Source of the DNA: Achromobacter spanius
Lineage (GTDB): Bacteria > Pseudomonadota > Gammaproteobacteria > Burkholderiales > Burkholderiaceae_B
Length of the DNA: 64,000 bases
NCBI RefSeq assembly: GCF_029637605.1
Contig: NZ_CP121261.1
Location: 1,116,001 to 1,180,000, forward strand
Direction of reading: 5' to 3'
Under the pieces are notes generated by a model. That model was not told where the DNA came from, did not search any database, and was given only the letters and a program-made list of their open reading frames with translations. The translations under genes were made by a program, and so were the position numbers. Positions 1 to 16,832 of this stretch are shown piece after piece. How positions within the stretch are numbered: position 1 is the stretch's first letter; each line of letters opens with the position of its first letter.

Positions 1-3000
1 CTCACCACCATCGGCCAACAGCAGTTGGTCAGCGCTGACTCGGTATTGATCCAATCAGTGGCCGAACCGGTGCTGGACATCAAGCACGGGGTGGTGGCGT
101 CCACGGGCGGAACGGTCACCGGCACGACCGGCACCTGGTCCGGCGCGGGCACCACGGGCTCGGCCTTCACGGGTAGCGTCACGGACCTGGACGCGCTGGA
201 GGGCACGGTGGCGGGCATGGACGCGGGCGATATCCTGCGCCTGGCGACCGGCATCGAGAACAGCGGCGGTGGCGGCGCCTACGACGTGGCCACCACGCTG
301 CAATTGCCGCCTGGCCTGGATTTCCTGGGCGGCAGCCTGGCCGCCGCCAACCTGCGCTTGGCCCGGGGCGACGGCACGCTGCTGCAACTGAATGTGGACT
401 ACGCCGTTTCCGGCAACACCATCACCTTTCTGGACGCGGGCGGGCAGGCCACGCTGCTCGCCGGGCGCGCCGGCTCGGCGGCCGACCTTGCCGGGCAGAA
501 CGTCGTCATCATTACCTATGACACCGTCGCCAGCGCCACCGTCAACGCCAGCCAGAACCTGCAAAGCACCGCCATCCTGACCCGCTACGCCAGCGTCGAA
601 GGCGGCACCGACTTCACCCCCACCGACCTGACCGACACGGCCGACGCCGTGGTTGCCGCGCCCACCGTCTCCATCGGTTATGCCGGCGGCTCGCTGGACG
701 CGGGCGACTCCAACGCGCCCCACACGTCCGGCAGCAACCTGGTGGTGGGCGAGCGCATGCTCTACGACATCATCGTGACGCTGCCCGAAGGCGTCACGCA
801 GAACCTGCGCCTGGAAGACCTGATTCCCGCCGGCATGGGCCTGGACGCGAGCTTTGGCAACGGCGGCTATCAACTCATCACCACCACGGCCGGTAGCACC
901 GCGCTGACGGCGGACTTCGCCGGCACGGTGGCGGTGGCGTCCCTGACGGGCATTGGCGGCACGGCCGGTGTGGATGGCACGGACGTGCGTCTGAGCTTCA
1001 GCGCCAGCTCCGCCGCCGGCAACAACATCGCGGGCGACAACCGCTTTGTGATCCGCGTGGCCCTGGTGGCGCTGGACGTGTCGTCCAACCAGACGGGTGC
1101 GGTGCGCACGCACGACGCACAACTGGTCTACAGCGACCCCGACACCGACACCCCAAACGGCGCTACGCCGTCCGACCGCAATGTGGCCGCGCAGGGCACG
1201 CGGCCCTCGATCAACATTGTTGAGCCCACCTTGAACCTGACACAGTCTGCGGTCAGCTCAGGCTCGGCGGTGGGCGTGGACCGGGGCGATGTGCTGACCT
1301 ATACCGTCACCATCGGCAACGGCACGGCAGCCACCGACGTCGACGCCTTTGACGTGACCGTGCAAAACGTGTTGCCCTCTGAACTGTCCGGCGCACAGAT
1401 ACTGGGCGTCACGCTGTACGGCGGCGCCACCTTGACCGGCGGGGATTTCGTCATCGTCAACGGCGTGTTGCAAACCACCGATGGCGCCAAGCTTGATATT
1501 CCCAAGGGCGCGACGGTGGTGCTGCGCTTCTCGGGCACGCTGGATGCCACCACCGGCATCACCGGGTCTGTCGACAACCAGGTGAGCGTGCAGTGGACCA
1601 GCATGGACGGGGCCGCGGCGAACGAACGCACGGGCACGGGCGGCGTGAATGACTACGCCCTTACCAACACCTTGTCCGAGCGCGTGGCGGCGGACGCCAC
1701 CATCAGCCACGTGGGCGGGCTGGCGGATACGGCGGCCGGTTCCCCGTCCACCGCCGATCCGCAAGACGTGGCCGTGGGCGAGATCATCCACTACCGCGTG
1801 GCCTTCGTGGTGCCGGAAGGCACCGACCCGAACGCCGCCATCCGCGTGGTCTTGCCACAAGGCCTGACCTTCATGAACGACGGCTCCGCCACCTTGGCCT
1901 TCATTGCCGACGCGCTGGCCGGTGGCGGCTCTGGCATACAGACCGACCTGGCCGGGCTGATCGTGTCCGGCAACGCCTACCTGCAGGGCGGCTTCACGGA
2001 CGAAGCGCAAACCCTGCTGGCGCCGGACCTGTCCGGCGTGCGCGCGCAAGGTGTCATCAACCAGTCGAGCATCGACGTCACCGACCCGCGCGCAGTGATG
2101 CTGCAACTGGGCACGCTGGTCAATGGCAACAACGATGCGGACTTCGAAGTCGTGTATTTCGAATTCAACGTCCGCGTGGACAATGCGGCGGGCGTGGTGG
2201 CGGGCCAGCAGTTGGCGGTCAAGGCAGACTTCCTGAGCGGTGGCGAGGTGCGCACCAGCACGGATTCCGCGGTCGAGCGCGTGGTGGAACCCAAGATCGA
2301 CAATCTGGACAAGACGGTCACGGCATTCGATCCCGGCGTGGGCGGCGCGACCGGCCAGGCCACCTATGGCGTGTCGTTCAGCAATACCGGCAGCGCCACC
2401 GCCTACGACGTCAGGCTGACCGACACCTTGCCCGCGGGCGGGCAGAACCTGGCCGTGATCGGGCTCACCATCGATGGCACCACGTATGCGCCGGGCGGCT
2501 ATCCCGCCGGCGTCAGCGTCACGGTAACGGGCGGGCAGGTCACCGTCACGATGGACCAATTAGCGGCGGGCCAAACCGTCAGCCTGGCCTACACGGCCGA
2601 CTTGCCCAACAGCGTGCTGCTTGCCGACACCACGGCCTCGGTGTCCTACACCAGCCTGCCGGACAGCTTCCAGAGCTATGCCGGCACCAACGTGGGCACA
2701 GCCGGTTCCACGGGCGGCGAGCGCACCGGCGCAGGCGCCGCGCCCAACGTCTATCTGGACAGCGATGGCGCGGGCGTCAGCCTGGTCAGCGGCACCTTGT
2801 GGAACGATACCGACAGCGCCAGTTCCAGCGCGGCGCCGGACGGCCCTGGGCTGCAAGGCCAGGACGTGACCTTGACCTGGGGCGGGGCGGACAACGACCT
2901 GTCGACAGCGGCCGACAACCAAAGCTGGACCGTCACCACCGACGCCAACGGGTATTACTACTTTGGTGTTCTGGGTGCAGGCGTGTTCCGCATCGACGCC

Positions 3001-6000
3001 GCGCCCAGCATCACCTTGTCCACGCCGACCGGCGTCGTGGCGGCTCGGGTCGACAGCGACGGCGGTTCGCCCCTGGCGCAAGTGGTCGTGCAACTGGGCG
3101 ACCAGGGCACGGGCGCGGCCGGCAACATCGGTTATGTTGAACGCAACGACGGCCCCACCGTGGCGGCGCCGGCCACGCAGACCGTTGATGAAGACACCAC
3201 GCTGGCCATCTCGGGCCTGGGCATCACGGACCCCGATGCGGCTGGCGGCGTCATGCAGGTGCTGCTGTCGGTCGAGCACGGCGTGCTGAACCTGACGCTG
3301 GGCAGCGCCGTGGTGGTGGGCGGTGGCTTGAACGGCCGCACGGTGACGCTGCAAGGCAGCCAGGCCGCGCTGAACGCCGCGCTGGCCACGCTGCAATACA
3401 CGCCCGACGCCAACTACAACGGCAACGACACACTGACCATCCGCACCGATGACCTGGGCCAACGTGGCGACGCGGACGGTGACGGCATCCCGTTTGAACC
3501 CGTCGACGACAACCTCAGTGCCAGCGGTGCCACGGACATCACCATCAACGCCATCAACGATGCGCCGCTAGGGGTGAACGACAGCGCCACGGCCGTCGAA
3601 GCCGGCGGCACCGGCAATGGCACCCCCGGCGTCGACCCGCGCGGCAATGTGCTGAGCAATGATCGGGATGTCGACATCCAGACCAACGATGACAGGCTGA
3701 GCGTGACGCAGATCGGGCAGGGCGGCGCCACGCAGGCCGTGACGCCGGGCACGTCCGGCACGCTGGTCGGCCAGTACGGCACCCTGGTCATGAATGCGCA
3801 AGGCTCGTACGAATACGTGCTGGACAACGACAACCCGCTGGTGCAGCAGTTGCTGGCGTCCAGCGCGCCGCTATCCGAGTCGTTCACCTACAACCTGCGC
3901 GACGTGGCGGGGGCCGTCAGTTCGGCCACGCTGGTCATCACCATCCAGGGCGCCAACGACGCGCCGGTGGCGGACGCCGACGTTAGCCAGGCCACCGAAC
4001 AGGGCGGCACAAACAACGGCACGGCCGGCAGCGACGCGGTGGGCTCCGTGCTGGACAACGACACCGACGTGGACGCGGGCGATACCCGCACCGTCACCTT
4101 GTCGCGCCCGGTGTTGGCGGGCGGCTTTGGCGACATCGTGGCAGTGCCCGTGGGCAGCACGTCGGCCAATGGCGCGACCGTGACCGGCCGCTACGGCGTC
4201 TTGACGCTGGGCGCGGACGGCACCTACCGCTACGTGCTGAACAATGCCGACCCCACCGTGCAGGCGTTGAACGTGGGCCAGACGCTGACCGAAGTGTTCC
4301 AGTACGCCGCCACCGACGCGGGCGGCCTGGACGGCGTGGCCAGCATCATCATCACCATCAACGGCGCCAACGACAACCCGGTTGCCGTGGACAACGTCCA
4401 GGACGGCTACACCGCGCGCGTGGACACGGTCACCAATACCGTGATCGGCACGGCGCTGAACCCAAGCGGCAACGTCATCCTTGACCAGACCGACCCGGAC
4501 AGCGACGGCTCCGTGGACAGCGATATCGACAACGAGATATCGACAGCCATCGTCAGCCTGATCCGTGGCGAGAGCGGCACGGACCAAGCCGTGCCCACGG
4601 TGGGCGATCAGGCCATCGTGGGCCAGTACGGCACGCTCTACATCAGCCAGTCGGGCGAATACCGCTACGAGATCGACAGCCTGAACCCCGCGCTGATCGC
4701 CCTGGGACCGAACGCCACGGTGTCCGAGAACTTCATCTACACCTTGCAGGATGCCGTGGGCGGGCAGTCCAGCGCCACCTTGTCCATCGTCATCCATGGC
4801 GTACAGGACGCGCCCGTGGCCAAGACGGTGATTGGTGTCGCCGTTGAAAAGGGCGGCACCAGCAATGGCACCGCCGGGCAGGACGCCAGCGGCGATGTCA
4901 CGGTCAATGACATTGACCCGGACGGCGACACGCTGAACGTCATCAACGTGCGCACCGGACGCGAAGCCGGCTCTGGCGCGGGTGGCACCGTGGGTGACGC
5001 ACTTCAGGGGCTATACGGCACGCTGACGCTGAACGCCGACGGCTCGTACAACTACGTCGTGAACGACGCGGACCCCGCCGTGCAGGCCTTGCGCGCCGCC
5101 GGCAATACGCTCGTCGACTATTTCACGTACACCATCAACGACGGCGGCCTGAGCGACGCGGCCGAATTGCGCATCCGCATCCTGGGGCAAAACGACGCGC
5201 CGGACGCGGTTGACGAAACGGGCTTTGCCGTGGAAGCCGGCGGCACCGGCAATACCAGCGGCGGCCAGCCGGCCGTGGGCGACCTGCTGCAGAACGCGAC
5301 GGATGTGGACAGCCCCGCGTTCGGTGAAACGCTGACGGTGACCGGGGCCCGCACGGGCGGCGGTAACGCGGCGGTGCCTGATGGTGGCGGCACGGCGATC
5401 ACGGTGGTGGGCACCTACGGCACCTTGACCATCCTGCCCAACGGCCAATACGCCTATGTGGCGGACAACGCCAACCCCACGGTGCAGGCCCTGGCGCCGG
5501 GCGAAACCCTGGACGAGACCTTCACCTATCAGGTGACCGACGCGGGCGGCTTGTTCGACACCGCCTTGCTGACCATCACCATCCGTGGCGCCAACGACGC
5601 GCCCACGTCCGACAACGAAACCGCCGTAGCCATTGAAGCGGGCGGCACGGCCAACGGCACCGGCGCGGTCAACCCAAGCGGCAACCTGCTGGACGCGGGC
5701 GACACCGACCCCGACAACAACGACGTGCTGCAGATCGATGGCGTGCGCGCGGGCGGTGCGTCGGGCTCCGGCGCCATGGCCGCCACCGGCACCGATGTGG
5801 CCGGCCTGTTCGGCACCTTGCGCGTGGAAGCCGACGGCACCTATACCTACACCCTGAACAACGACCTGGACGCCGTCCAGCGCCTGCGCTTGGCCACAGA
5901 CACGCTGACCGATACCTTCACGTTCCGCGTTGCCGACACGGGCGGCCTCACCAGCGATTCCACGCTGACCATCACCATACGCGGCGCCAACGACGCGCCA

Positions 6001-8565
6001 GTCGCCAGGCCCGACACGGGTGCCGCCATCGAAGCCGGCGGCGTTGAAAACGGCACCGACGGCGCGCCGGCAAGCGGCAATGTATTGACCAACGACACGG
6101 ACGTGGACGCGGGGGACACCAAGCAGGTCAGCGCCGTGGTCAACAGCGCGTCGGCAGCGGGCGTGGTCGGCGGCAACACCGCCGGCCTGTACGGCACGCT
6201 GGTGCTGGGCGCCGATGGCGCCTACACCTATGTGGTCGACGACAGCCTGGCCGCCGTTCAGCAACTGCGCACCGGCCAGTCGCTGGACGACACCTTCACC
6301 TACACGGTGCGTGATGCGGGCGGGCTGACCAGCACCGCCACGCTGACCATCACCATCGCCGGCCGCTACGACACGCCCAAGGCGGTGAACGACACCGCCA
6401 CCGCAACGGCGGGTTCGTCGGTCAGCGCGCCCATCGACGCGACCGGCCTCGTGCTGGACAACGACGAAGACGTGGATGCCGGTGACACCAAGACGGTCAA
6501 CGGCGTGCGCGCCGGCACCGAACTTCCCGATGCGCCAATGATCGCCGTGGGCGGGCTGACGCGCATCGACGGCGCTTACGGCTGGCTGGAGATCGCGCCG
6601 GACGGCAGCTTCACGTATCACGCGGACGACACCAACGAGGCCGTGGCGGCGCTGGCGGCGGGCGAGCAATTGCTGGACCGCTTCACCTACCAGGTCGTGG
6701 ACAGCGGCGGCCTGACGGACCAGGCCGAGCTGACGATCACCGTGGTGGGCGTGAATGACCCACCCATCGCCGCGCCTATCATCACCGTGGCGATCGAGCA
6801 GGGGGATGAAGTGGGGCGCGTGGGCGGACGCAACCCCAGCGGCGACGTCACCTTGCGCGACACCGATGCCGAAGGGCGTCCCTTGACGGTCGTGGAGATA
6901 CGCACGGGCCTGGAAATCGGCACCGGCACGCCGGGCACGGTGGGCGTGCCGCTGCAAGGCCGGTACGGCACCTTGCTGCTGCAAGCCGACGGCACATTCC
7001 TCTATACGCTGGACAACAGCCTGCCCGAAGTCCAGGCGCTGCGCACCCTGCGCAACGTCTTGACCGATACCTTCACCTACACCATCGGCGACGACCAGGG
7101 CGCGCGCGACCAGGCGTCGATCGCCATTCTTATCGTGGGCCAGAACGACGCGCCGGTGGCCTTGCCCGACCATGCCGTCGCCATCGAGGCAGGTGGCCGC
7201 GACAACAGCGCACCGGGCTTGAACCCGGCCGGCAACGTGCTGGACAACGACACCGATGTGGACGCGGGCGATACGAAAGCCGTGACGGCGGTGCGGACAG
7301 GCACAGGCGCCGGCACGGGCACAAGCGGCGTCGTCGACGGCGTCACCGTCGGCCTGTTCGGCACCTTGACCTTGTCCGCCGATGGCAGCTACCGCTACGT
7401 GGTGGACAACGACAACGCCCAGGTCCAGGCGCTGCGCAACGCCAACGACACGCTGACCGAAGTTTTCACCTACACCATGCGGGACACGGCGGGCGCGATG
7501 GTGCAGGCCGAGCTCACCATCACCATCGTCGGCCGGGACGACACGCCCATGGCCCAGGACGACACGGCAAGCGTGAACGACATCGAAGGGCCGCCCGTCA
7601 CGCAGGGCAACGTGTTGGACAACGATGCCGACGTCGACGCGCAAGAGCAACTGACCGTGGTCGGCATCCGCACAGCGGGCGAGGGCGGCAGCGCCGTCAT
7701 CACCGGCGTGGTCGGCGAACGGCTGGCGGGGCGCTACGGCTTCCTGGTGCTGAATGCAGACGGTTCCTATACCTACGAGATCGACCTCACCAACCCCGCC
7801 GTCAACGCCGCCCGAGGCCAGGGCCCGTTGCTGCAAGACGTGTTCGTCTACACGGTGGGCGACCGCACCGGCCGCACGGACCAGGCGCTGCTGACCGTCA
7901 CCCTGGACATGGACGCGGTGTATGTCGCCAGCCCGAACCCGCACGGTTTGTTTGACGACACCTCCAGCCTGCGCCCGCTCAGCGATCTGTCGGTAGACCC
8001 GGTGGTCTTCGTCACGCCGGCCGTGCGTGATGCGCTGCACCTGCAACAGTGGCTGACCGCCGTGATACGCGGCGAACGTCCCGGCATGGTCTTGCCGCCC
8101 GTGGTCACGGCCGAATCCATCGGCGAAGGCTTGGGGCTGGACCCGTCTGTCATGCTGACGCCGACGATCCAGGCCTTGCAGTTGTTGTCGCGCTATGAAG
8201 ACGCGCGCCTGCAAGCGCGGCACGGGGTCATGTCGCTGACCGCCGACGGCTTGCTGCCCGATGTGTCGGTGTTCGCGCGCAAGGAAATCGAGCTGCAACG
8301 GCCCGCCGCCAAGCCGGCCGGGCAGGACAAGCCCGCGCCGCAAAAAGAGGCAGCGCCGCCGCAGCCGCAGCCGCAACCGGAAACACAGCCCCAACCGCAA
8401 CCGCAACCGCAATCGCAAGCCCCCGCGCAACCCGCCGAGGCCCGCGCGGTGCACCTGGCTTCCCTGGACCGGCCCGCCGCCACGTCCTTGGGCTCGTTCA
8501 GCCAACAGATCGACCGCCTTTCCATGCGCCGCAATTTTGGTGCCGCACCCACGCCAGAACGTTAA
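1..8565 (+). CDS. Giant VCBS-repeat surface/adhesin-like protein, 5' end outside window
   Basis: The reading frame is open from the first base, so the true start and any signal or retention module lie upstream; about 2854 residues are visible. The first third has DUF11-like beta-sandwich repeats (segments such as GDVLTYTVTIGNG and TGQATYGVSFSNTGSATAYD). Around residues 910-1010 is an SdrD-B-like segment, then a cadherin-like segment, then about eleven VCBS-type repeats with ANDAPVA-like and VLDNDTDVDAGD-like signatures. The last 230 residues are non-repetitive and include a Pro/Gln-rich tract. I see no RTX nonapeptides (GGxGxD) and no autotransporter barrel. The gene directly precedes a TolC-like protein, two HlyD-like adaptors and an M50-HlyD fusion, so it is probably their export substrate. 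The adhesion role is inferred from family and size. Confidence 0.85.
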   Translation, partial: LTTIGQQQLVSADSVLIQSVAEPVLDIKHGVVASTGGTVTGTTGTWSGAGTTGSAFTGSVTDLDALEGTVAGMDAGDILRLATGIENSGGGGAYDVATTLQLPPGLDFLGGSLAAANLRLARGDGTLLQLNVDYAVSGNTITFLDAGGQATLLAGRAGSAADLAGQNVVIITYDTVASATVNASQNLQSTAILTRYASVEGGTDFTPTDLTDTADAVVAAPTVSIGYAGGSLDAGDSNAPHTSGSNLVVGERMLYDIIVTLPEGVTQNLRLEDLIPAGMGLDASFGNGGYQLITTTAGSTALTADFAGTVAVASLTGIGGTAGVDGTDVRLSFSASSAAGNNIAGDNRFVIRVALVALDVSSNQTGAVRTHDAQLVYSDPDTDTPNGATPSDRNVAAQGTRPSINIVEPTLNLTQSAVSSGSAVGVDRGDVLTYTVTIGNGTAATDVDAFDVTVQNVLPSELSGAQILGVTLYGGATLTGGDFVIVNGVLQTTDGAKLDIPKGATVVLRFSGTLDATTGITGSVDNQVSVQWTSMDGAAANERTGTGGVNDYALTNTLSERVAADATISHVGGLADTAAGSPSTADPQDVAVGEIIHYRVAFVVPEGTDPNAAIRVVLPQGLTFMNDGSATLAFIADALAGGGSGIQTDLAGLIVSGNAYLQGGFTDEAQTLLAPDLSGVRAQGVINQSSIDVTDPRAVMLQLGTLVNGNNDADFEVVYFEFNVRVDNAAGVVAGQQLAVKADFLSGGEVRTSTDSAVERVVEPKIDNLDKTVTAFDPGVGGATGQATYGVSFSNTGSATAYDVRLTDTLPAGGQNLAVIGLTIDGTTYAPGGYPAGVSVTVTGGQVTVTMDQLAAGQTVSLAYTADLPNSVLLADTTASVSYTSLPDSFQSYAGTNVGTAGSTGGERTGAGAAPNVYLDSDGAGVSLVSGTLWNDTDSASSSAAPDGPGLQGQDVTLTWGGADNDLSTAADNQSWTVTTDANGYYYFGVLGAGVFRIDAAPSITLSTPTGVVAARVDSDGGSPLAQVVVQLGDQGTGAAGNIGYVERNDGPTVAAPATQTVDEDTTLAISGLGITDPDAAGGVMQVLLSVEHGVLNLTLGSAVVVGGGLNGRTVTLQGSQAALNAALATLQYTPDANYNGNDTLTIRTDDLGQRGDADGDGIPFEPVDDNLSASGATDITINAINDAPLGVNDSATAVEAGGTGNGTPGVDPRGNVLSNDRDVDIQTNDDRLSVTQIGQGGATQAVTPGTSGTLVGQYGTLVMNAQGSYEYVLDNDNPLVQQLLASSAPLSESFTYNLRDVAGAVSSATLVITIQGANDAPVADADVSQATEQGGTNNGTAGSDAVGSVLDNDTDVDAGDTRTVTLSRPVLAGGFGDIVAVPVGSTSANGATVTGRYGVLTLGADGTYRYVLNNADPTVQALNVGQTLTEVFQYAATDAGGLDGVASIIITINGANDNPVAVDNVQDGYTARVDTVTNTVIGTALNPSGNVILDQTDPDSDGSVDSDIDNEISTAIVSLIRGESGTDQAVPTVGDQAIVGQYGTLYISQSGEYRYEIDSLNPALIALGPNATVSENFIYTLQDAVGGQSSATLSIVIHGVQDAPVAKTVIGVAVEKGGTSNGTAGQDASGDVTVNDIDPDGDTLNVINVRTGREAGSGAGGTVGDALQGLYGTLTLNADGSYNYVVNDADPAVQALRAAGNTLVDYFTYTINDGGLSDAAELRIRILGQNDAPDAVDETGFAVEAGGTGNTSGGQPAVGDLLQNATDVDSPAFGETLTVTGARTGGGNAAVPDGGGTAITVVGTYGTLTILPNGQYAYVADNANPTVQALAPGETLDETFTYQVTDAGGLFDTALLTITIRGANDAPTSDNETAVAIEAGGTANGTGAVNPSGNLLDAGDTDPDNNDVLQIDGVRAGGASGSGAMAATGTDVAGLFGTLRVEADGTYTYTLNNDLDAVQRLRLATDTLTDTFTFRVADTGGLTSDSTLTITIRGANDAPVARPDTGAAIEAGGVENGTDGAPASGNVLTNDTDVDAGDTKQVSAVVNSASAAGVVGGNTAGLYGTLVLGADGAYTYVVDDSLAAVQQLRTGQSLDDTFTYTVRDAGGLTSTATLTITIAGRYDTPKAVNDTATATAGSSVSAPIDATGLVLDNDEDVDAGDTKTVNGVRAGTELPDAPMIAVGGLTRIDGAYGWLEIAPDGSFTYHADDTNEAVAALAAGEQLLDRFTYQVVDSGGLTDQAELTITVVGVNDPPIAAPIITVAIEQGDEVGRVGGRNPSGDVTLRDTDAEGRPLTVVEIRTGLEIGTGTPGTVGVPLQGRYGTLLLQADGTFLYTLDNSLPEVQALRTLRNVLTDTFTYTIGDDQGARDQASIAILIVGQNDAPVALPDHAVAIEAGGRDNSAPGLNPAGNVLDNDTDVDAGDTKAVTAVRTGTGAGTGTSGVVDGVTVGLFGTLTLSADGSYRYVVDNDNAQVQALRNANDTLTEVFTYTMRDTAGAMVQAELTITIVGRDDTPMAQDDTASVNDIEGPPVTQGNVLDNDADVDAQEQLTVVGIRTAGEGGSAVITGVVGERLAGRYGFLVLNADGSYTYEIDLTNPAVNAARGQGPLLQDVFVYTVGDRTGRTDQALLTVTLDMDAVYVASPNPHGLFDDTSSLRPLSDLSVDPVVFVTPAVRDALHLQQWLTAVIRGERPGMVLPPVVTAESIGEGLGLDPSVMLTPTIQALQLLSRYEDARLQARHGVMSLTADGLLPDVSVFARKEIELQRPAAKPAGQDKPAPQKEAAPPQPQPQPETQPQPQPQPQSQAPAQPAEARAVHLASLDRPAATSLGSFSQQIDRLSMRRNFGAAPTPER
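3550..7905 (+). repeat. Eleven tandem VCBS-type protein repeats
   Basis: Repeat units of roughly 380-430 bases begin at a GxNDAP-like motif near 3555, 3955, 4366, 4804, 5191, 5590, 5989, 6366, 6754, 7144 and 7537. Each unit contains an EAGGxxNGT-like segment, a VLxNDTDVDAGD-like segment, a GxYGTLxLxxDGxYxYxxDN segment and a DTFTYTxxDxxG segment. The units are diverged at DNA level, so they look like an old array rather than a recent expansion. Confidence 0.85.
8361..8420 (+). repeat. Pro/Gln-rich low-complexity tract in adhesin C-terminus
   Basis: Repeated CCGCAA/CCGCAG hexamers encode alternating Pro-Gln residues about 60 residues before the end of the giant protein. Such tracts often span periplasm or cell wall as stiff linkers (compare the Pro-rich part of TonB); that role here is inference. 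Confidence 0.8.
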
Positions 8566-8580
8566 TACGGAGCGAGCAGG

Positions 8581-10158
8581 ATGACAGTGAAGCGAAACCG
8601 GACTCATGCCGTTGTGCTTGCCACGGTGACCTGCTTTGGGCTGGCGGCGTGTTCGTCGCCGCAGGTGCCCAAGGGCTACACCAAGGATGAAGTGCGCCAG
8701 CGCGTGGAAGACGACCGGCGCATGATGTATGCGGACCAGGAGCCCATCAAGGGTCCCATCACCTTCTACGACGCGGCGGCGCGCGCGCTGAAATACAACC
8801 TGGACTATCGGCTCAAGCTGATGGAAACCGCGCTGTCGCGCAACCTGGTCGACGTGACCCGGCACGAGATGCTGCCCCGGCTGGTGGCGTCCGCGGGCTA
8901 CACGTCGCGCTCCAACGATTCGGGCGGCACCTCGGTGGGTATTGAAGACGGCGAAGTCAGCTTGCGGCCGTCGACGTCAGAACAGCGCTATCACCGCCTG
9001 GCCGACCTGGAGCTGACCTGGAGCACGCTGGATTTCTTTGTGGCCTACGAGCGCACCCAGCAAAAGGCGGACCAGGTGCTGATGGCCGAAGAGCGCCGCC
9101 GCAAGGTGGTGCAGAACGTCTTGCAGGACGTGCGCAACGCCTATTGGCGGGCCTTGGGCGCGCAGCGGCTGATCGCCTCCGTCGATACGCTGATGGTGCA
9201 GGTGCGCAGCGGCATCAAGTCGGCGCAGGAAGCCGAGAAGCGCGGCCTGTTGCCGCGCCAGCAGGCGCTGGCCTATCAGCGCGCGCTGCTGGACGCGGTG
9301 GGCCTGTTGTCCACGCGGCGGCAAGACCTGGAGTTGGCGCGCGCCGAGCTGGCGGCGCTGATGTCCTTGCCGCCCGGCACGGAATTCCAGGTGGCCGACG
9401 ACGTCGAGGAAAAGATCCCCGAGCCCAACTTCAACATCGAAGCGCTGGAGCGCCTGGCGCTGGAGAACCGCCCCGAGATCATGGAAGAGTGGTATCGCAA
9501 GCGCGTCACCGAAAACGACATCAAGATCGCCAAGGCGGAGCTGTGGCCCAACATCAGCTTCAGCGCGGGCACGCATTACGACTCCAACGACTATCTGTAC
9601 AACAACAGTTGGTCGTCGGTGGGGCTGCGGATTTCCTGGAACCTGCTCAACATCCTGAAGGCACCCGCGCTGGACGCGGCCGGCGAAAGCCAGAGCAAGG
9701 TGGCCGACCTGCGCCGGATGGCGCTGTCGATGGCGGTGCTGACCCAGTTGCGCGTGGCCGCGCAGCGCTATTACCTGGCGCGCGAACAACTGGAATTTGC
9801 CGACCAGAGCATGCAGGTGGATGGCCGGTTGCGTGACTACGCCAAGGCCAGCGCCAGCATTTCCGCCGATTCAAAGCTTGAATACATTCGGGCGGATGCG
9901 CGCTGGCTCTTGTCGCAGTACCAGCGCTATGCGGCCTATTCGGACGCCCAGGCCGCCTGGGGCCGTCTGTACAACTCCGTGGGCCTGGACGTGATGCCGG
10001 AAACCATCGCCAACCATGACCTGACCACGTTGGCGGCTCAAATCAAGACCACCATGCAAGGCTGGGAACGCACGGCGCTGCAGGCCCAGGCCCAAGCGCA
10101 AATTCCAACCCCGACCCAAACCTTGACCCAAACCCCAACCACGGGACCCGTCCAATGA
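8581..10158 (+). CDS. TolC/NodT-family outer membrane efflux lipoprotein
   Basis: This 525-residue protein is predicted to form the outer membrane channel of the adhesin export system. The N-terminus is a lipoprotein signal with lipobox LAAC and acylated Cys at residue 24. The rest has the alternating long helices and short strands of the OEP family, including the usual ALKYNLDYRLK-like helix near residue 60 and NRPEIMEEWYRKRV-like helix near residue 300. The tail is Gln/Pro/Thr-rich. It starts 15 bases after the adhesin stop, with GGAG upstream. Its stop overlaps the start of the following adaptor gene by four bases (ATGA), so the genes are coupled. Substrate specificity is inferred from this context. 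Confidence 0.85.
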   Translation: MTVKRNRTHAVVLATVTCFGLAACSSPQVPKGYTKDEVRQRVEDDRRMMYADQEPIKGPITFYDAAARALKYNLDYRLKLMETALSRNLVDVTRHEMLPRLVASAGYTSRSNDSGGTSVGIEDGEVSLRPSTSEQRYHRLADLELTWSTLDFFVAYERTQQKADQVLMAEERRRKVVQNVLQDVRNAYWRALGAQRLIASVDTLMVQVRSGIKSAQEAEKRGLLPRQQALAYQRALLDAVGLLSTRRQDLELARAELAALMSLPPGTEFQVADDVEEKIPEPNFNIEALERLALENRPEIMEEWYRKRVTENDIKIAKAELWPNISFSAGTHYDSNDYLYNNSWSSVGLRISWNLLNILKAPALDAAGESQSKVADLRRMALSMAVLTQLRVAAQRYYLAREQLEFADQSMQVDGRLRDYAKASASISADSKLEYIRADARWLLSQYQRYAAYSDAQAAWGRLYNSVGLDVMPETIANHDLTTLAAQIKTTMQGWERTALQAQAQAQIPTPTQTLTQTPTTGPVQ

Positions 10159-10997
10159 CGCGGCGACTGGTGTTGTCAGCAGTTCTCTTGTCGGCATGGG
10201 CGGGGATGTTCCTGACGCCTGTTGCGCATGGCCAAATCCAGCCGCAATCTCAAGCCGAACCCCCTTTGCCCGGGCCAGGTCAGGCCCAGCCCGGCCTGAC
10301 CTGGCCGGGCCTGAACGACCCTAACGCCATACGCGTGTTGTTGAGCGCCAATCCGGAAAGCACGATTTCGGCGCCAATGACGGGCCGGCTGGAAAAACTG
10401 GACGCTGCGCTGGGCCAGAAGGTGGACAAGGACGCCGTGCTGGTCAAACTGGATTGCGGCGAACCCCGCGCAAGGTTGCGGATGGCGAACGCAGAACTTG
10501 CCGGCGCGCGTGAAACCCTGAAAGCCAAGGTCGGCCTGCGCAAGCTGGACGCGGCGGGCGATACCGAAGTGAACCTGGCGCGCGCCGCCACCGACCGCGC
10601 CGCCGCCGCCACGGCCCTGGCCCAGGCGCAGGTGGACTATTGCACGGTGGCCGCGCCGTACTCGGGCCGCGTGGCAAAGGTGTATGTGCGGCCGCATGAA
10701 AGCGTGGCGGCCGGTGCGCCGCTGTTTGACCTGGTGGGCGACGGGCCGGTCAAGGTGCGCATGAACGTGCCGTCCCTGTTCCTGAAAGACATCAAGATCG
10801 GCACACCGTTCCAGATCAACGTCAGCGAAACCGGCAAGACCTATGGCGCAACCGTGTCGGCGGTGAGTGCGCGCGTGGACGCGGTGGCGCAGTCGATCGA
10901 ACTGGAAGGCCAGGTGCGCGACCCCAACGGCGAATTGCTGCCCGGCATGAGCGGCATCGCGGACTTCCAGGCAGCCACCCAAAACGATGCAAAATGA
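10155..10997 (+). CDS. Periplasmic HlyD/RND-type adaptor, short form
   Basis: A 280-residue adaptor with a Sec-type signal (MTRRLVLSAVLLSAWAGMFL, then an Ala-rich cleavage region) and no obvious membrane anchor after it. The barrel-sandwich halves are visible as STISAPMTGRLEKLDAALGQ near residue 75 and CTVAAPYSGRVAKVYVRPHE near residue 165. They flank a short helical hairpin of about 70 residues, and a beta-barrel domain follows. It should bridge an inner membrane component to the TolC-like channel. It overlaps the TolC-like gene by four bases and the next gene by eleven, so all are cotranslated. The protein is short for the family because the C-terminal membrane-proximal domain is missing or reduced. 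Confidence 0.8.
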   Translation: MTRRLVLSAVLLSAWAGMFLTPVAHGQIQPQSQAEPPLPGPGQAQPGLTWPGLNDPNAIRVLLSANPESTISAPMTGRLEKLDAALGQKVDKDAVLVKLDCGEPRARLRMANAELAGARETLKAKVGLRKLDAAGDTEVNLARAATDRAAAATALAQAQVDYCTVAAPYSGRVAKVYVRPHESVAAGAPLFDLVGDGPVKVRMNVPSLFLKDIKIGTPFQINVSETGKTYGATVSAVSARVDAVAQSIELEGQVRDPNGELLPGMSGIADFQAATQNDAK

Positions 10998-12324
10998 CCT
11001 GCTGCTGTTGTTGCAGTTGGCCGAGGTGGAAAGCCTGGCGCGCCAGGCCGACAACGTCCAGCAACTGAGTTTTCACATTGCCAACGACGCGCATCCCTTG
11101 CTGGGCTACCGCCAGGCGCTGGTCTTCGAGGACACAGGCGCCGACTGGAAGCTGCTGAACATTTCCGGCCTGGTGTCGGTGGACGAGCAATCCCCCTACA
11201 TCGTGTGGCTGGCGCAGGCGCGCAAGTGGCTGCGGCTGCGGGTGGCGGACGGGCAAGCGCAGTGGATCGACGCCGACGCGCTGGACAGCGCCAGCCCGCT
11301 GGTGCGCGATGGCTGGCGGGAATGGTGGCCGGCAGGCGCCTGGGCCTTGCCGTTGAAGTCGCGCGCGGGCGCCGTGCTGGGCTGGGTGCTGTACCTGATG
11401 GAACAACCGCCCACCCCCGGGCACGCCACGCTGATGGGTCGGCTCTGCCAGGCCTGGGCCTACAGTTGGGAACTGCTGGCCCGGCGCCGCAAGCCCCTGC
11501 GGCGAAGCTGGAAGCGGCGCTTGCGCATCCTGATTCCGCTGGCGCTGTTGGCGTTGTGTTTTCTGCCCATCCGGCAAAGCGCGCTTGCGCCCGCCGAAGT
11601 CACGTCGCTGGACCTGCAAGTGATCAGCGCGCCGCTGGATGGCGTTGTGCAGACCATCCACGTATCGCCCAACCAGGCGGTCAAGGCGGGGCAGGCGCTG
11701 TTTTCATTGGACGACACCACGCTCAGCCATCGGCTGGAAGTGGCGGTGCAGGCGGTGGCGGTGGCCGACGCCGAGCTGATGGCGGCCCGTCAAAGCGCTT
11801 TCCGTAACGACGAAAGCCGCATCAAGCTGACGACGCTGCAAAGCCGCGCACAAGAGCGGCGCGCCGAGCTGGCGTCGATACGGTCGCAACTGGACCGACT
11901 GGATGTGAGCGCGCCGCGCGATGGCATCGCTGTGTTCGCGGATGTGAATGATTGGCTGGGCAAGCCGGTGGTCACGGGCGAACGCATCATGCAATTGGCC
12001 GACCCCGCCAAGCCGGCCATGCTGATACAACTGCCCGTGTCCGACGCCATGTCGCTGGAGGTGGGCGCGCCGGTCAGCCTGTTCCTGACGGTGCGGCCGC
12101 TGCACCCGCTGGCCGGTGAAATCATCGAAACCAGCTACCAGTCGGCGCTGACACCCGAAGGGGTGCCCAGTTATCGGCTGCGCGCCAGCATCGGCCAGCA
12201 AGATGCCGACGACGCGCGCATTGGCCTGAAAGGCACGGCGCGCATCCAGGGCGGGCAATCGTTCCTGGGCTACGAAATCATTCGCCGTCCCTTGGCCACG
12301 CTGCGCGCGTTGACCGGGCTCTAG
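10987..12324 (+). CDS. GAF-like domain fused to membrane-anchored HlyD-type adaptor
   Basis: The 445-residue product has an unusual order. Residues 1-165 form a cytosolic GAF-like module (HPLLGYRQALVFE, then LLNISGLVSVDEQSPYIVWL). A basic stretch and one transmembrane helix follow at about 181-194, and then a HlyD-type periplasmic part. The lipoyl-like halves are visible as ISAPLDGVVQTIHVSPNQAV near 213 and VSAPRDGIAVFADVNDWLG near 308. It is the second adaptor in the operon and could couple a cytosolic signal or substrate to the export machine; that is inference. It overlaps the preceding gene by eleven bases and lies 17 bases before the M50 gene. Confidence 0.75.
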   Translation: MQNDLLLLLQLAEVESLARQADNVQQLSFHIANDAHPLLGYRQALVFEDTGADWKLLNISGLVSVDEQSPYIVWLAQARKWLRLRVADGQAQWIDADALDSASPLVRDGWREWWPAGAWALPLKSRAGAVLGWVLYLMEQPPTPGHATLMGRLCQAWAYSWELLARRRKPLRRSWKRRLRILIPLALLALCFLPIRQSALAPAEVTSLDLQVISAPLDGVVQTIHVSPNQAVKAGQALFSLDDTTLSHRLEVAVQAVAVADAELMAARQSAFRNDESRIKLTTLQSRAQERRAELASIRSQLDRLDVSAPRDGIAVFADVNDWLGKPVVTGERIMQLADPAKPAMLIQLPVSDAMSLEVGAPVSLFLTVRPLHPLAGEIIETSYQSALTPEGVPSYRLRASIGQQDADDARIGLKGTARIQGGQSFLGYEIIRRPLATLRALTGL

Positions 12325-12341
12325 GCACGGGGAGGGCGGCC

Positions 12342-14438
12342 ATGGACGACATGCTGACGCAGCCCTTGCCCGCCTTGCGGGAAGACCTGCGCCTGTTCGC
12401 GGGTGCGCCGCACCCCGACGGCAGCCCGGCCTGGATTATTGAAGACCCCGTGCGCAACCGGCATTTCCGCATCGGCTGGCTGGAGTTCGAATGCCTGGCG
12501 CGTTGGCACATGCTGCCCGGCGCGCTGCTGGAAGACATCCGCGCCCAGACCTCGCTGGAACCCGATGCCAGCCAGGTGTTCGGGTTTGCGGGCTTCTTGC
12601 AGCAGAACCACTTGCTGCGGCCGCATCCCTCGCGCAGCCAGGGCATGGCGCTTGCCGCGCCGGGACGCGAATGGCTGACGCTGAAATGGTGGCTGCACCA
12701 CTACCTGTTCTTTCGCGTGCCCTTGCTGCGGCCCACGTATTGGCTAAGCCGCATCTATCCGTATCTGCGCTGGCTGTTCAGCCCCGCCACCGCCTGGACC
12801 GTCGTCGTCCTAAGTCTGCTGGGCCTGTTCCTGACCCTGCGCCAATGGGACACCTTCCGCCACACGCTCTTTGAATCGGTGTCCTGGGAAGGCGCGCTGG
12901 GCTTTGCCTGCGCGCTGGTGGTGGCCAAGACGCTGCACGAATTCGGCCATGCGCTGGTCGCCACGCACATGGGCGTCAGGGTGGGCCACATGGGCGTGGC
13001 CTTCCTGGTGATGTGGCCCATGCTCTACACCGACACCAGCGAGTCCTGGCGGCTGGCGGATTCGCGCAAGCGGCTGATGATCGCCAGCGCCGGCATCATC
13101 ACCGAGCTGGCCATCGCGGGCCTGGCGACGCTGTGCTGGGCGCTGCTGCCACCGGGCGTGCCGCGCCAGGCCTGCTTTTACCTGGCCACCACCAGTTGGG
13201 TGCTGTCGCTGTTGCTGAACGCCAGCCCCTTCATGCGCTTCGACGGCTATTTCATTCTGTCGGATTTGCTGGACATGCCCAATCTGCACGAACGCGCTGG
13301 CGCCATGACGCGCACCGCGATCCGGCGCCGCTTGTGGGGCTTTGCGGATCCGTGGCCCGAAGACCTGCCCACGCGCGTCAGGCGCAGGATGATTGTGTTC
13401 GCCTGCGTGACGTGGCTGTACCGGCTGGTGGTGTACCTGGGCATTGCGCTGGCGGTGTACCACCTGTTCTTCAAGGCGCTGGGCATATTCCTGTTCGCCG
13501 TGGAAATTCTCTACTTCATTGCCTTGCCGATCTGGCGGGAGGTGCGTATGTGGTGGCAACGCAAGACCGAAGTCGCGACCCGGCGCCGTGTCGTGCTGCT
13601 GTTGCTGCTGACGCTGTTGGTGACCGTGCTGGCCGTGCCCTGGCCCACGTCGGTGCGGGCGCCGGCCCTGGCCCGCAGCGCCAAGATGTGGACGGCCTAT
13701 GCGCCCGCGCCGGCCATGCTGCTGGAACGCCGGGCGCCAGGCGAAGTCAGCGCGGGCAGCAAACTTATCCTGCTGGACCGCCCGGAACTCAGCAGCGAAG
13801 CCTTGGCGGCGCAAGCCAACGTGGCCGGGCAGGCGGCGCGGCTGACCGGGTTGCTGGGCCAGCAGGCGGGCATTGATCAGCAGGCCGCCACCATCGAGGC
13901 GCTGGCGCACAGCCGGGCAACCGCGCGTTCGGTGGCGGCCGAACAGGCCCGCCTGGAAGTGGTGGCGCCGTTTGACGGCCAATGGCTGGACGCGCCCGCC
14001 GAGATCCAGGCCGGCACCTGGGTCAACCCGAAACAAGCGCTGGGGCGCCTGGTCGACCCTACGCATTGGATTGTTGATGCCTACGTCGGCGAAGCGGATA
14101 TTCAGTTGTTGAAGCAGGGCGGCGCGGGTTGCTTCTACATTGAACACGACCCCCGGCGCCTGTGCGGTTCCATACGCGGCATCGCGCCGTCGCGCATCCA
14201 GCAGATCAACGCGCCCATGTTGACGACGGTACACGGCGGGCCGATTCCCTCGGTGCAAAAGCAAGGCACCCTGGTGCCCGATGACGCGTTGTACGTGGTG
14301 ACGCTGGATCTGGACGACGTGCCGGCAGGGCTTAACGAGCTGCGGGGCAAGGCCTATTTCAAGGGCGAGGCCCGCAGCAGGCTGATGCAATGGATGCGTT
14401 CGTTGGCCAGTCTGGTGATTCGTGAGAGTGGGTTTTGA
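12342..14438 (+). CDS. PqqD-like / M50 site-2-type metalloprotease / HlyD-like fusion protein
   Basis: A 698-residue polytopic protein with three parts. Residues 1-95 resemble PqqD-like winged-helix domains (PAWIIEDPVRNRHFRIGWLE). Residues 120-435 are an M50 membrane metalloprotease with zinc motif HEFGH at 199-203 and the second motif NASPFMRFDG at 293-302, both intact. After a last helix at about 416-433 comes a HlyD-like periplasmic segment to the C-terminus, with EVVAPFDGQWLDAPAEIQAG-like barrel halves near 540. The family is annotated as putative peptide zinc metalloprotease, usually without known function. It starts after a strong GGGGAGGG ribosome-binding site. In this operon it occupies the place of the ABC ATPase of a type I system. 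Its role as exporter, processing protease or both is inference. Confidence 0.8.
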   Translation: MDDMLTQPLPALREDLRLFAGAPHPDGSPAWIIEDPVRNRHFRIGWLEFECLARWHMLPGALLEDIRAQTSLEPDASQVFGFAGFLQQNHLLRPHPSRSQGMALAAPGREWLTLKWWLHHYLFFRVPLLRPTYWLSRIYPYLRWLFSPATAWTVVVLSLLGLFLTLRQWDTFRHTLFESVSWEGALGFACALVVAKTLHEFGHALVATHMGVRVGHMGVAFLVMWPMLYTDTSESWRLADSRKRLMIASAGIITELAIAGLATLCWALLPPGVPRQACFYLATTSWVLSLLLNASPFMRFDGYFILSDLLDMPNLHERAGAMTRTAIRRRLWGFADPWPEDLPTRVRRRMIVFACVTWLYRLVVYLGIALAVYHLFFKALGIFLFAVEILYFIALPIWREVRMWWQRKTEVATRRRVVLLLLLTLLVTVLAVPWPTSVRAPALARSAKMWTAYAPAPAMLLERRAPGEVSAGSKLILLDRPELSSEALAAQANVAGQAARLTGLLGQQAGIDQQAATIEALAHSRATARSVAAEQARLEVVAPFDGQWLDAPAEIQAGTWVNPKQALGRLVDPTHWIVDAYVGEADIQLLKQGGAGCFYIEHDPRRLCGSIRGIAPSRIQQINAPMLTTVHGGPIPSVQKQGTLVPDDALYVVTLDLDDVPAGLNELRGKAYFKGEARSRLMQWMRSLASLVIRESGF

Positions 14439-14463: not shown

Positions 14464-15927
14464 CTAGTTCGACGCCACCTTCGCGTCGTCCGCCGGGCGT
14501 TCCCAGCCCCCGCCCAAGGCGCGGTAAGACGCAATGGCCGCGCGCGCCGATTCGGTTTGGGCCTGCGCGCTGGCATCGCGGGTGCGTAGCACGGCGCTGT
14601 CAGCGTCCAGCACTTCTATCAGGCTGACGATGCCGTTCTGGTAGGCCACGAAAGCACTGGTTCGTGCCTGCGTCAGCGCTTGCACGCCGTCGGCCAGGTA
14701 GCGCGATTGTTGCTCACGTTTGACCAGGGCCGAGAAGGCGTTCTCCACATCTTCGGAAGCGCGCAACACAGCCAGGCGGTACGCCGCCAGCGCTTCGGCG
14801 TTGCGGCCACGGGCGTTTGCGATGTCGGCTTCGATACGGCCGAAGTCGAACAGGCGCCAACGCAGGCCAAGCACGCCTTGCAGTTGATTGGCGCTGTCGT
14901 TGAACAGATTGCCGGATAGGGTGGTGGCGGTGCCCAGCACGGCGCCTAGCGAGAATGTGGGGTAGTACTCGGCGATCGCCGCGCCAATACCGGCGTTGGT
15001 GGCGGCAAGCTGGCGTTCGGCCGCGATCAGGTCGGGGCGGCGACGCAGCAGGTCGGCCGGCGTGCCGGTGTTGGAAATCGCGGGCGGCAAGGGGATGGGC
15101 GCGCTGGCGGCCAGCAGGGCGCGGTTGCTGCCGGGCGGCTCGCCCAGCAGTACGTCCATCGCGTTCATCGCGGCCGACAGCCCGTCTTCCAGTACCGGCA
15201 CGGTGGCGCGCACTTCGGCCAGCGCGCCTGTCGATTGATGCACCTGGAGTTCCGCCGCGAGCCCGTGGTCGAATTGCAGTTGCACGGTGGCAAGCAATTG
15301 GCTGCGGGTCTTGACCTGCTCGCGGGCGATGTCCAGGCGGGTCTGCAAGCCACGAATCAAGACGTAGATGTCGGCGGTCTGTGCCGCCACGGCCAACCGA
15401 GCGGCGGCAACGCCGGCCTCGGCGCCCTGGTAGTTGGCGACGGCCGCTTCGCGTTGACGTCGCAAGCCGCCGAACAGGTCGAGCTCCCAGCCGGCATTCA
15501 AGCCCAATTCGTAATAGTCGCCGTAGCGCTTGTAGTCGGGCGTGGCGTTCAACAACCGGCCCTGCGGTGTTTCCAGCGACTGGCGCGCGCGGGCGGCCTG
15601 GCCTGCCACGGCGGCCGACGGCAGCAACGCGGCAGTGGCGTGGCCCAGGCCCGCGCGCGACTGGGCCACGCGCGCGACAGCCTGCGCGATGTCCAGGTTC
15701 TGGTCGAGCGCGCGCTCCACCAATTGGGTCAGCAGCGGGTCATGAAACCCTTGCCACCAGACCCGGGCATCGGCCGCGGCGGGCGCCTGACGCGCCTGAA
15801 TCGCGGCCTGTCCCATAAAATGCGGGGCTGACGCCGTTTCGGGCTGCTGATAATCGGGGCCGACAGCACAGCCTGTCAGAAGCAAGCTAGATAGAAACAG
15901 CGGCAGAGCATGTTTACGGGGCAGCAT
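14464..15927 (-). CDS. NodT/OprM-family outer membrane efflux lipoprotein
   Basis: The 487-residue product is the outer membrane channel of a tripartite RND system. With the ATG at 15927, which has AGGA seven bases upstream, the signal peptide ends in lipobox LTGC with Cys at residue 20. The mature start CAVGPDYQQPE is typical of NodT-family proteins, and two OEP domains follow. A TTG five codons upstream is also in frame but has a weaker site. It is divergent from the TetR gene and pairs functionally with the adaptor and pump beyond it. The TetR-type operator at 16041-16067 lies in its promoter. Confidence 0.9.
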   Translation of the reverse strand: MLPRKHALPLFLSSLLLTGCAVGPDYQQPETASAPHFMGQAAIQARQAPAAADARVWWQGFHDPLLTQLVERALDQNLDIAQAVARVAQSRAGLGHATAALLPSAAVAGQAARARQSLETPQGRLLNATPDYKRYGDYYELGLNAGWELDLFGGLRRQREAAVANYQGAEAGVAAARLAVAAQTADIYVLIRGLQTRLDIAREQVKTRSQLLATVQLQFDHGLAAELQVHQSTGALAEVRATVPVLEDGLSAAMNAMDVLLGEPPGSNRALLAASAPIPLPPAISNTGTPADLLRRRPDLIAAERQLAATNAGIGAAIAEYYPTFSLGAVLGTATTLSGNLFNDSANQLQGVLGLRWRLFDFGRIEADIANARGRNAEALAAYRLAVLRASEDVENAFSALVKREQQSRYLADGVQALTQARTSAFVAYQNGIVSLIEVLDADSAVLRTRDASAQAQTESARAAIASYRALGGGWERPADDAKVASN

Positions 15928-16040
15928 GACGGGGTCCTGCAAGACAGGTGAAAGAGAAAGTTGGCGCGTCGAACGTCCGTACCGTGGGTTGAGACGCGCC
16001 CCTGCATCGAATAAAAACGATCACGAAACCATCGCGAATG

Positions 16041-16067
16041 GTGACTATTGTACGATATGGTCATTAG
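16041..16067. promoter_or_regulatory. TetR-type operator, site 1 (outer membrane factor/tetR intergenic)
   Basis: GTGACTATTG and TGGTCATTAG are separated by seven bases, and TGAC...GTCA ends make a 22-bp imperfect palindrome. The same two decamers with the same spacing recur at 16765-16791 before the adaptor gene. The best candidate ligand is the TetR protein encoded between the two sites. Confidence 0.7.
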
Positions 16068-16101
16068 TCGTCAATCGATAAAGCTATAAGGTAGCGTTCC
16101 T

Positions 16102-16719
16102 ATGTCCGACTCGTCCCAGCAATCCCAAGGCCATCGCGGACCGACCGATCACAGCGTGCGAGACCAGATCGTGCAGGCGGCGAACGCCCACTTCAGCCAC
16201 TACGGCTACGACAAGACCACGGTGTCCGACCTGGCGCGCGAGATCGGCATTTCCAAGGCCTACATCTACAAGTTCTTCGATTCCAAGCAGTCCATCGGCG
16301 AGGCCATATGCACCAACGTGCTGGGCGAGCTGATGGCTGGCGTGGAGCAGGCCATCGCCCAGGCCGAATCGCCCACCGATCGCTTTCGCCGCTTCTTCCT
16401 TACCGCCGTGGAGCTTTCCGCCGGGCTGTTTTTCCAGGACAGAAAGCTCTATGAAATCGCGGCGTATTCCTCTATGGAAAAATGGGCATCGTCGCAGGCC
16501 TATGAGCAGCGGATGCGAGGCATGCTGACCGACATCCTGCGCGAAGGAAGAGAGCAGGGCGAGTTCGAGCGCAAGACCCCGCTGGACGAAACCGCGCGGT
16601 CGATTTATCTGGTGATGCTGCCCTTCATCAGTCCGCTTTTGCTTCAGTACAACCTGGACCGTTTGCCGGATGCCCCGCGTGAAGTGGCAAGCCTGGTGTT
16701 GCGCAGCCTGGCCCCCTGA
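16102..16719 (+). CDS. TetR/AcrR-family repressor of the flanking RND efflux genes
   Basis: This 205-residue regulator has an N-terminal TetR helix-turn-helix at about residues 20-66 (TTVSDLAREIGISKAYIYKFFDSKQ) and a C-terminal ligand-binding helical domain of the usual length. It lies between a divergent outer membrane factor and a codirectional adaptor-pump pair. Both flanking promoter regions carry one identical-spacing palindromic operator, so it very probably represses all efflux genes and itself. The inducer cannot be read from the sequence. An AAGG ribosome-binding site precedes the ATG. Confidence 0.9.
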   Translation: MSDSSQQSQGHRGPTDHSVRDQIVQAANAHFSHYGYDKTTVSDLAREIGISKAYIYKFFDSKQSIGEAICTNVLGELMAGVEQAIAQAESPTDRFRRFFLTAVELSAGLFFQDRKLYEIAAYSSMEKWASSQAYEQRMRGMLTDILREGREQGEFERKTPLDETARSIYLVMLPFISPLLLQYNLDRLPDAPREVASLVLRSLAP

Positions 16720-16764
16720 ACGCGGGCGTTGTCGTCCGAGCTAAGCAACGAGAAATCCCAATTA

Positions 16765-16791
16765 GTGACTATTGACAATATTGGTCATTAG
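16765..16791. promoter_or_regulatory. TetR-type operator, site 2 (upstream of efflux adaptor)
   Basis: It is a second copy of GTGACTATTG-N7-TGGTCATTAG, located between the tetR stop and the adaptor start. Only the seven central bases differ from site 1, which is strong evidence for one shared DNA-binding protein. Confidence 0.7.
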
Positions 16792-16832
16792 ATTCACACT
16801 GCGCGGCAATCCGATTGCCCCAGGGGTGTCTT

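Follow-up and report, generated by a model that had tools for sequence, protein, structure and literature searches.

A candidate ABC-independent export operon for giant repeat proteins bearing an N-terminal LExR leader in Achromobacter spanius

Overview

The first five genes in a 64,000-nucleotide stretch of the Achromobacter spanius genome (NZ_CP121261.1; C1:1116001-1180000 of a one-contig, 6.47 Mb genome), hereafter the window, probably encode a dedicated export system that operates independently of ATP-binding cassette (ABC) exporters. Its substrates would be giant proteins that carry an LExR leader at the N-terminus, and a fusion of an RRE domain, an M50 protease and an HlyD-type adaptor (RRE-M50-HlyD) would stand at the inner membrane. 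In the mechanism that we propose, the PqqD/RRE-like domain of the fusion would capture the leader (LExRx[LM][FLY]D[GA]A) in the cytosol, and the membrane protease would then cleave or release it. A periplasmic conduit to a TolC-like lipoprotein would be built from the HlyD domains present in the fusion, in a GAF-HlyD2 protein and in HlyD1, with GAF-HlyD2 as the probable sensor of a cytosolic signal. The energy for passage through the inner membrane would most likely come from SecA, in the form of a dedicated, stripped-down SecA in a sister branch of the system and of the housekeeping Sec machinery in the branch of the window. This energy step is the weakest part of the proposal, and SecA as the motor (the housekeeping one in the window's branch) is a somewhat doubtful assignment. 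The computations themselves show the gene set, the leader, the RRE and GAF folds, the intact protease site, the lack of an ABC in the loci and the way in which the leader varies with the type of machine. Leader cleavage, the direction and energy of transport and a surface location for the giant are what we infer from the analysis below.

A broader claim can be framed as that of a distinct secretion system, in which the RRE domain reads the LExR leader, the protease-adaptor cleaves it, a TolC conduit completes the route and SecA or the proton motive force replaces the ABC motor, with two co-evolved leader/machine sub-types and plasmid-borne forms that include those of Escherichia coli. We put this claim forward tentatively, its chances falling just short of even. 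If the system works as proposed, a widespread gene set whose broader role was described in 2015 as completely unknown (PMC4452313) would gain a substrate together with an address label and its reader, and would be extended to a branch without SecA. It would also tie leader recognition of the kind found in ribosomally synthesized and post-translationally modified peptide (RiPP) systems to the secretion of proteins thousands of residues long, and would provide a way of exporting through TolC that needs no ABC motor.

The operon

The initial annotation of the window had placed five near-contiguous genes at its start, and open reading frame (ORF) and family scans bear these positions out:

1..8565, + strand: giant repeat protein with cadherin/Ig-type repeats, the C-terminal 2854 of its 3761 amino acids lying inside the window; stop at 8565
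8497..8511, + strand: C-terminal FSQQI, 22 residues before the end of the giant, a tail motif of the [FL]x[EDQ]Q[LIV] type
8581..10158, + strand: outer-membrane channel of the OEP/TolC family, a predicted lipoprotein (PF02321, E 4e-39; lipobox LAAC read by eye)
10155..10997, + strand: HlyD1 periplasmic adaptor, 280 amino acids (PF13437; TIGR01730 above cut-off; signal peptide by eye)
10987..12324, + strand: HlyD2, with a GAF domain (residues 1-169), a predicted transmembrane helix (172-190) and a MacA-like adaptor
12342..14438, + strand: fusion of RRE, M50 site-2 protease and HlyD, 698 amino acids
12363..12626, + strand: N-terminal PqqD/RRE-like domain of the M50 fusion (residues 8-95), the predicted cytosolic leader reader
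12936..12950, + strand: HEFGH zinc site of the M50 core
13638..14429, + strand: MacA-like adaptor domain of the M50 fusion (residues 433-696)

The spacing of the five genes is, in order, +15, -4, -11 and +17 bases, and HlyD_3 was matched in all three adaptor proteins in the family scan of the window ORFs. The start of the giant lies at C1:1113280, 2720 bases before the first base of the window, and its full length is 3761 amino acids; it carries DUF4347 near its N-terminus, and its repeats score as Cadherin_4/Big_9, a fold class often annotated as VCBS. An M50 fusion 83% identical to that of the window is present in A. kerstersii.

Association of giants and M50 fusions

The genome holds three M50-HlyD fusions (at 1128342, 4798171 and 1717399) and three DUF4347 giants (at 1113478, 4800644 and 1752681, with open frames of 3776, 7264 and 10,774 amino acids), and every one of these giants adjoins one fusion, a pairing that is more than chance. 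Across 61 relatives, DUF4347 was found in 20 genomes, all 20 of which also bear the fusion; three further relatives (G005, G029 and G034) bear the fusion but no DUF4347, and the match in another (G057) is to the adaptor only. Among 398 genomes of the phylum, 75 carry both elements, 20 only DUF4347, 14 only the fusion and 289 neither (Fisher p 2e-47, kinship not corrected). Fusion-bearing genomes are here the 89 with a match of at least 300 bits (two of them partial, G064 and G137), out of 283 with any match.

The gene set recurs around the fusions themselves. In 101 fetched M50 loci (21 from the genome and its relatives and 80 named ones, spanning 3.4-22 kb each), a GAF-HlyD2-type adaptor was found in at least 94, HlyD1 in at least 71, an OEP channel in at least 66, all three in at least 64 and an accessory SecA in at least 5, these counts being lower bounds, with many stretches ending at a contig edge. 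Giant-like ORFs showed up at 83 of these 101 loci. Overall, at least 4855 homologues of the M50 fusion were found.

An N-terminal leader on the giants

The giants share an N-terminal motif, LExRx[LM][FLMY]. In the giant of the window the leader reads ALEPRLLFDAAG, with the motif at residue 18, and since it lies outside the window it could not have been seen in the initial annotation. The leader is present in 51 of 55 DUF4347 loci from genomes with an M50 fusion (27 from the search of relatives and 28 of the 30 phylum loci, taken as the best match per top-scoring genome) and in none of nine DUF4347 loci, from seven genomes, lacking the fusion. This comparison set was found via DUF4347 and covers DUF4347-bearing giants only; one locus with a cut N-terminus (L237) was excluded from it, and two entries (L207 and L240) are one protein. 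The DUF4347 proteins of genomes without the fusion mostly begin near DUF4347, and two of them (L232 and L233) begin with what appears by eye to be a Sec-like signal. The leader pattern was widened after misses had been seen, and the loci were redone by DUF4347 similarity; the first patterns (27 of 56) were too narrow, caught wrong-strand shadow ORFs and were replaced.

Around the fusions, the leader occurs in 26 of 29 giant-like ORFs of M50 loci with a complete N-terminus, some of which are near-copies. The base rate among other ORFs is 5 of 678, one of the five being actually a giant. The three relatives with a fusion and no DUF4347 possess giants all the same, and these bear LEPRFLLDAA. A search against NCBIfam with the N-terminal parts of two giants matched no LEPR model. 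At the opposite end of the proteins, the motif [FL]x[EDQ]Q[LIV] is found in the last 90 residues of 39 of 74 giant tails (200 shuffles gave a mean of 0.7 and a maximum of 3) and in none of the 74 when the preceding 60 residues are taken as an internal control.

In Micavibrio sp. DHS20C02 (L137), two proteins of ~965 amino acids lie upstream of the M50 operon and both have LEKRLMLDAS near the N-terminus. One genome with an M50 system (G050) contains two extra leader-less DUF4347 proteins (L242 and L092), for which the PrtD-type ABC carried by that genome could be the export route.

Leader reader and protease

Over its first ~95 residues, the M50 fusion is predicted to take up a PqqD/RRE-like beta3-alpha3 winged fold that matches leader-bound lasso B1 proteins, and fold comparison likewise supports the GAF fold of HlyD2. 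Judging from this modelled likeness, the RRE domain may well bind the leader of the giant. HExxH and R[FY]D[GA][YF] are kept in 101 of 101 homologues, HEFGH being the form of the M50 motif in the window. HExxH and a distal Asp ligand lie in membrane helices, with N, P and D invariant, as in M50 proteases; the protease would be active on the leader. The position of the fusion at the inner membrane, proposed in the initial annotation, is supported. Peptidase_M50 itself matches with 34 bits. Among named families, RiPP maturation proteases (daptide and YydH/LiaK) come closest, all below cut-off; NF041824, for instance, matches the fusion with E 3e-48 and 165 bits, the cut-off being 300 bits. A profile of the fusion matches MacA, EmrA and MexA and, weakly, MJ0392 and RseP.

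Two branches of the system and an accessory SecA

A tree of 33 fusions separates two branches. The six branch-B fusions in it form one group with a support of 100/100, and for five of these six the fetched stretch contains an accessory SecA; the M50 fusion of the window falls outside this SecA-linked branch. Branch A includes Pseudomonadota, Thermodesulfobacteriota, Nitrospirota and Bdellovibrionota. In the 61 relatives, on which the adjacency of SecA rests, all 16 non-canonical SecA_DEAD matches above cut-off are no more than 0.4 kb away from a fusion, a partial match taken as canonical SecA (G033:C428) and a weak, helicase-like match of 24.9 bits in G050 having been set aside. Conversely, an accessory SecA lies beside 16 of the 17 fusions with at most 29% identity to that of the window (branch B), the exception being G051:C2. 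The phylum-wide SecA count was left unused, partial accessory matches being inseparable there. Nine relatives with branch-A fusions only (G005, G009, G021, G029, G032, G034, G035, G047 and G050) have one full-length SecA each, their other SecA matches being at most weak (25 bits or less).

In the genome of A. spanius, the SecA_DEAD matches above cut-off are the canonical SecA at 5287342 and one at 1716088, in the third giant locus (C1:1709000-1754900; L051, L241). Here the 10,774-residue DUF4347 frame is accompanied by an M50-HlyD fusion, a GAF-HlyD2 and a 925-residue ORF holding the accessory SecA and an HlyD part in one frame. The same search gave no SecA_DEAD match above cut-off at the locus of the window.

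The leader changes with the machine. All 11 branch-A leaders follow LExRx[LM][FLY]D[GA], and all 14 branch-B leaders follow LExRx[LM][LMY][SA]A[DE], branch B being drawn from four genera and 10 of its 14 leaders being orthologues within Achromobacter. The initial annotation had gone as far as suggesting that the protease itself might drive export, and this part is not upheld: nothing shows an energy source in the protease, and the motor in the sister branch is instead a SecA.

Plasmid-borne copies

The whole operon occurs, in the same gene order, on plasmids of E. coli (leader LESRQLFDGAA) and Kosakonia (LEPRMLFDGA). Machinery genes were matched in 24 of 5426 complete E. coli genomes, 22 of them over at least 80% of the query, and 21 of the 25 places of matching are on plasmids. 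In one of these (L254, NZ_CP060066.1), the five-gene operon of E. coli sits on an IncHI1B-typed plasmid near insertion sequence (IS) elements and the lac and fec genes.

The leader is found also in Cupriavidus metallidurans CH34, B. anthina and Azospirillum; of the eight plasmid loci examined, five have it. The M50 fusion of CH34 shares 68% identity with that of the window, and its giant, 3750 amino acids long, bears LEPRLLYDAA. The loci without the leader are in Magnetospirillum (a remnant of 492 amino acids), Phyllobacterium (no motif) and Caballeronia (the N-terminus lying outside the open frame). At the Phyllobacterium locus (L259, NZ_CP050303.1), a pair of HlyD2 and M50-HlyD, for which neither TolC nor HlyD1 is listed alongside, adjoins the leader-less protein of 1412 amino acids; a type I secretion ABC and its adaptor lie ~5 kb away on the other strand.

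Search for an ABC exporter and alternative explanations

The initial annotation had seen no ABC exporter in the operon, and this stands for the surrounding DNA: a search for such a gene just upstream, which that annotation had named as a refuting find, gave none. None of the ten ORFs Pfam-scanned in the ~9 kb before the giant is an ABC (the three matches are a biotin carboxylase, a carboxyltransferase and GntR/FCD). Seven ORFs taken from PF00664 loci of the same genome, among them one (L067) that turned out not to be an ABC, found nothing similar in the 15.3 kb fetched upstream of the giant, and outside the ~9 kb the check was by similarity only. The five-gene set, for which the same annotation had proposed a search across genomes, recurs without an exporter ABC in the fetched DNA of the 101 M50 loci, where 13 ABC-like ORFs match stretches the size of a nucleotide-binding domain only. 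An RND or MFS pump belonging to the operon was not found either, the RND pump at 17972-21079 having its own adaptor and adjoining TetR and NodT genes; directly 3' of the operon (14464-21079) lie a NodT-type OEP, a TetR regulator, an RND adaptor and this RND pump, apparently a separate efflux system.

An ABC might nonetheless act in trans, with a distant exporter of the LssB, HlyB or PrtD type powering export and the operon contributing adaptors, channel and a processing protease. The genome does hold an LssB-type ABC exporter (C1:154270-156351), ~957 kb from the operon, many fusion-bearing genomes are among the 127 of 398 with an LssB-type ABC above cut-off, and the Phyllobacterium plasmid has a type I ABC with its own adaptor close by. 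Yet 17 of the 89 fusion-bearing genomes have no match to the LssB model better than 1e-120, a threshold chosen from the score of a non-type-I ABC (358 bits). None of these 17 passes the HlyB cut-off, for which 20-41 matches were scored per genome, and five pass that of PrtD. In the remaining 12 of the 89 (G142, G083, G271, G355, G064, G108, G124, G148, G200, G203, G234 and G261), no ABC passed any of the three type I secretion models, other ABC classes falling outside the test. Three of the 12 are less than 90% complete (G200, G234 and G261), and G142 is a single contig listed as 100% complete. The LssB of A. spanius itself scores 456 bits on the HlyB model, and the best of the 12 reaches 437 (G142, without the N-terminal domain). 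It is mainly because of these 12 genomes that we regard the use of an ABC in trans as improbable. The lack of an exporter ABC in the M50 loci argues in the same direction, as does the N-terminal position of the leader, unlike the uncleaved C-terminal signal of type I secretion, although a C-terminal motif exists in the giants.

Alternatively, as the initial annotation had suggested, the M50-HlyD complex might itself be the gate through the inner membrane, a notion close to the pore proposed for the SecA-linked form (PMC4452313). The drive would come from the proton motive force, from the folding of the protein outside the cell and, in loci that have it, from the stripped SecA. The union of RRE, M50 core and adaptor in one chain fits such a gate, as does the failure of any other inner-membrane channel gene to recur in the fetched loci, in which tagging was confined to seed families; those accessory SecAs that were scanned have no wing-scaffold, and may thus bypass the usual engagement of SecYEG. 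The M50 core, however, belongs to a protease family and keeps an invariant active site, it is not known as a protein channel, and an energy source was not found in the branch of the window, so that a gate of this kind seems unlikely. We consider it very improbable that the M50/RRE protein merely trims or modifies a giant exported by other means, with TolC and the HlyD proteins exporting something small. The nearest named families are indeed RiPP maturation proteases, even if below cut-off, but the giant, TolC and the three adaptors are near-contiguous and recur together, the leader region of the giants has no Sec-type hydrophobic segment and the leader co-varies with the machine.

Several observations weigh against the dedicated, ABC-independent system that we favor, starting with the LssB-type exporter of the genome and the five fusion-bearing genomes passing the PrtD cut-off. 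In addition, one of the 12 genomes (G200) contains an ORF that matches the HlyB model over its full length with a score, 382 bits, short of the cut-off, and the LssB step scored two candidates per genome. The coupling of giant, leader and machine has exceptions: 18 of the 101 M50 loci show no giant-like ORF in the fetched stretch, 3 of the 29 giant-like ORFs lack the leader, and so do 4 of the 55 DUF4347 loci from fusion-bearing genomes (L089, L092, L202 and L204). The leader-free comparison set draws on 7 of the 20 genomes with DUF4347 and no fusion; four of its nine loci come from two incomplete genomes (G220 and G239), and another (L234) opens inside DUF4347, its true start being unsure. 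The leader, moreover, is not a classical signal peptide, its maximum hydropathy over 19 residues being 1.06 in the giant of the window as opposed to 1.92 for the signal of HlyD1, and this weak hydrophobicity makes entry into the Sec pathway hard to explain. As for the motor, all four accessory SecAs scanned lack SecA_SW (the wing-scaffold) and SEC-C, both present in the genome's own SecA, which makes a standard SecA role doubtful, and no motor gene was seen in the branch of the window.

Comparison with known systems

The operon resembles type I secretion systems (HlyB/HlyD/TolC and those of the LapA/LssB type) in bringing together a giant repeat protein, HlyD-family adaptors and a TolC-family channel. 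It differs from them in the absence of an ABC exporter at the locus, in an inner-membrane part made of RRE-M50-HlyD, in the N-terminal leader and in the presence of three different adaptors. With the M50 leader peptidases of RiPP systems (daptide, YydH/LiaK) and with RRE/PqqD proteins it shares a related protease and the RRE fold, but in place of a small modified peptide the neighbouring substrate is here a giant protein, and a MacA-like adaptor forms one chain with the protease. An N-terminal LEPR-xLL motif on giants is common to our proteins and to the LEPR-XLL domain (PMC10868602, PMC9611531). Export machinery is not mentioned in the passage of PMC10868602 consulted, and the link to RRE-M50-HlyD is proposed here. 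Among the open-licence PMC papers listed in literature searches, none links LEPR leaders to M50/HlyD machinery, and apart from PMC4452313 and the LEPR-XLL name nothing on this machinery came up.

The closest precedent is the module reported by Kamneva, Poudel and Ward in 2015 (PMC4452313), which describes a secondary SecA together with M50/HlyD, GAF/HlyD and HlyD proteins, sometimes with an OEP and with no ABC. The authors noted the loss of the wing-scaffold in the secondary SecA, suggested SecA as the ATPase and M50 as the pore, and called the broader role of the module completely unknown. The terms DUF4347, LEPR, giant and cadherin do not occur in the main text, and in the sections consulted no substrate, leader or RRE is named for the module. 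The genes of the window share with it the M50/HlyD, GAF/HlyD and HlyD set, and no SecA was found at their locus; the third giant locus has the full composition (SecA, M50-HlyD, GAF-HlyD2 and an HlyD part) beside a giant. Hence, the view of the initial annotation that no characterised system has this composition can be kept for function, within the literature searched, but not for the gene set, whose SecA-linked form was already published (PMC4452313). What is new here is the leader, the RRE domain, the protease site kept in all 101 homologues, the 12 of 89 fusion-bearing genomes in which no ABC passed the three type I models, the branch-wise change of the leader and the existence of a branch without SecA.

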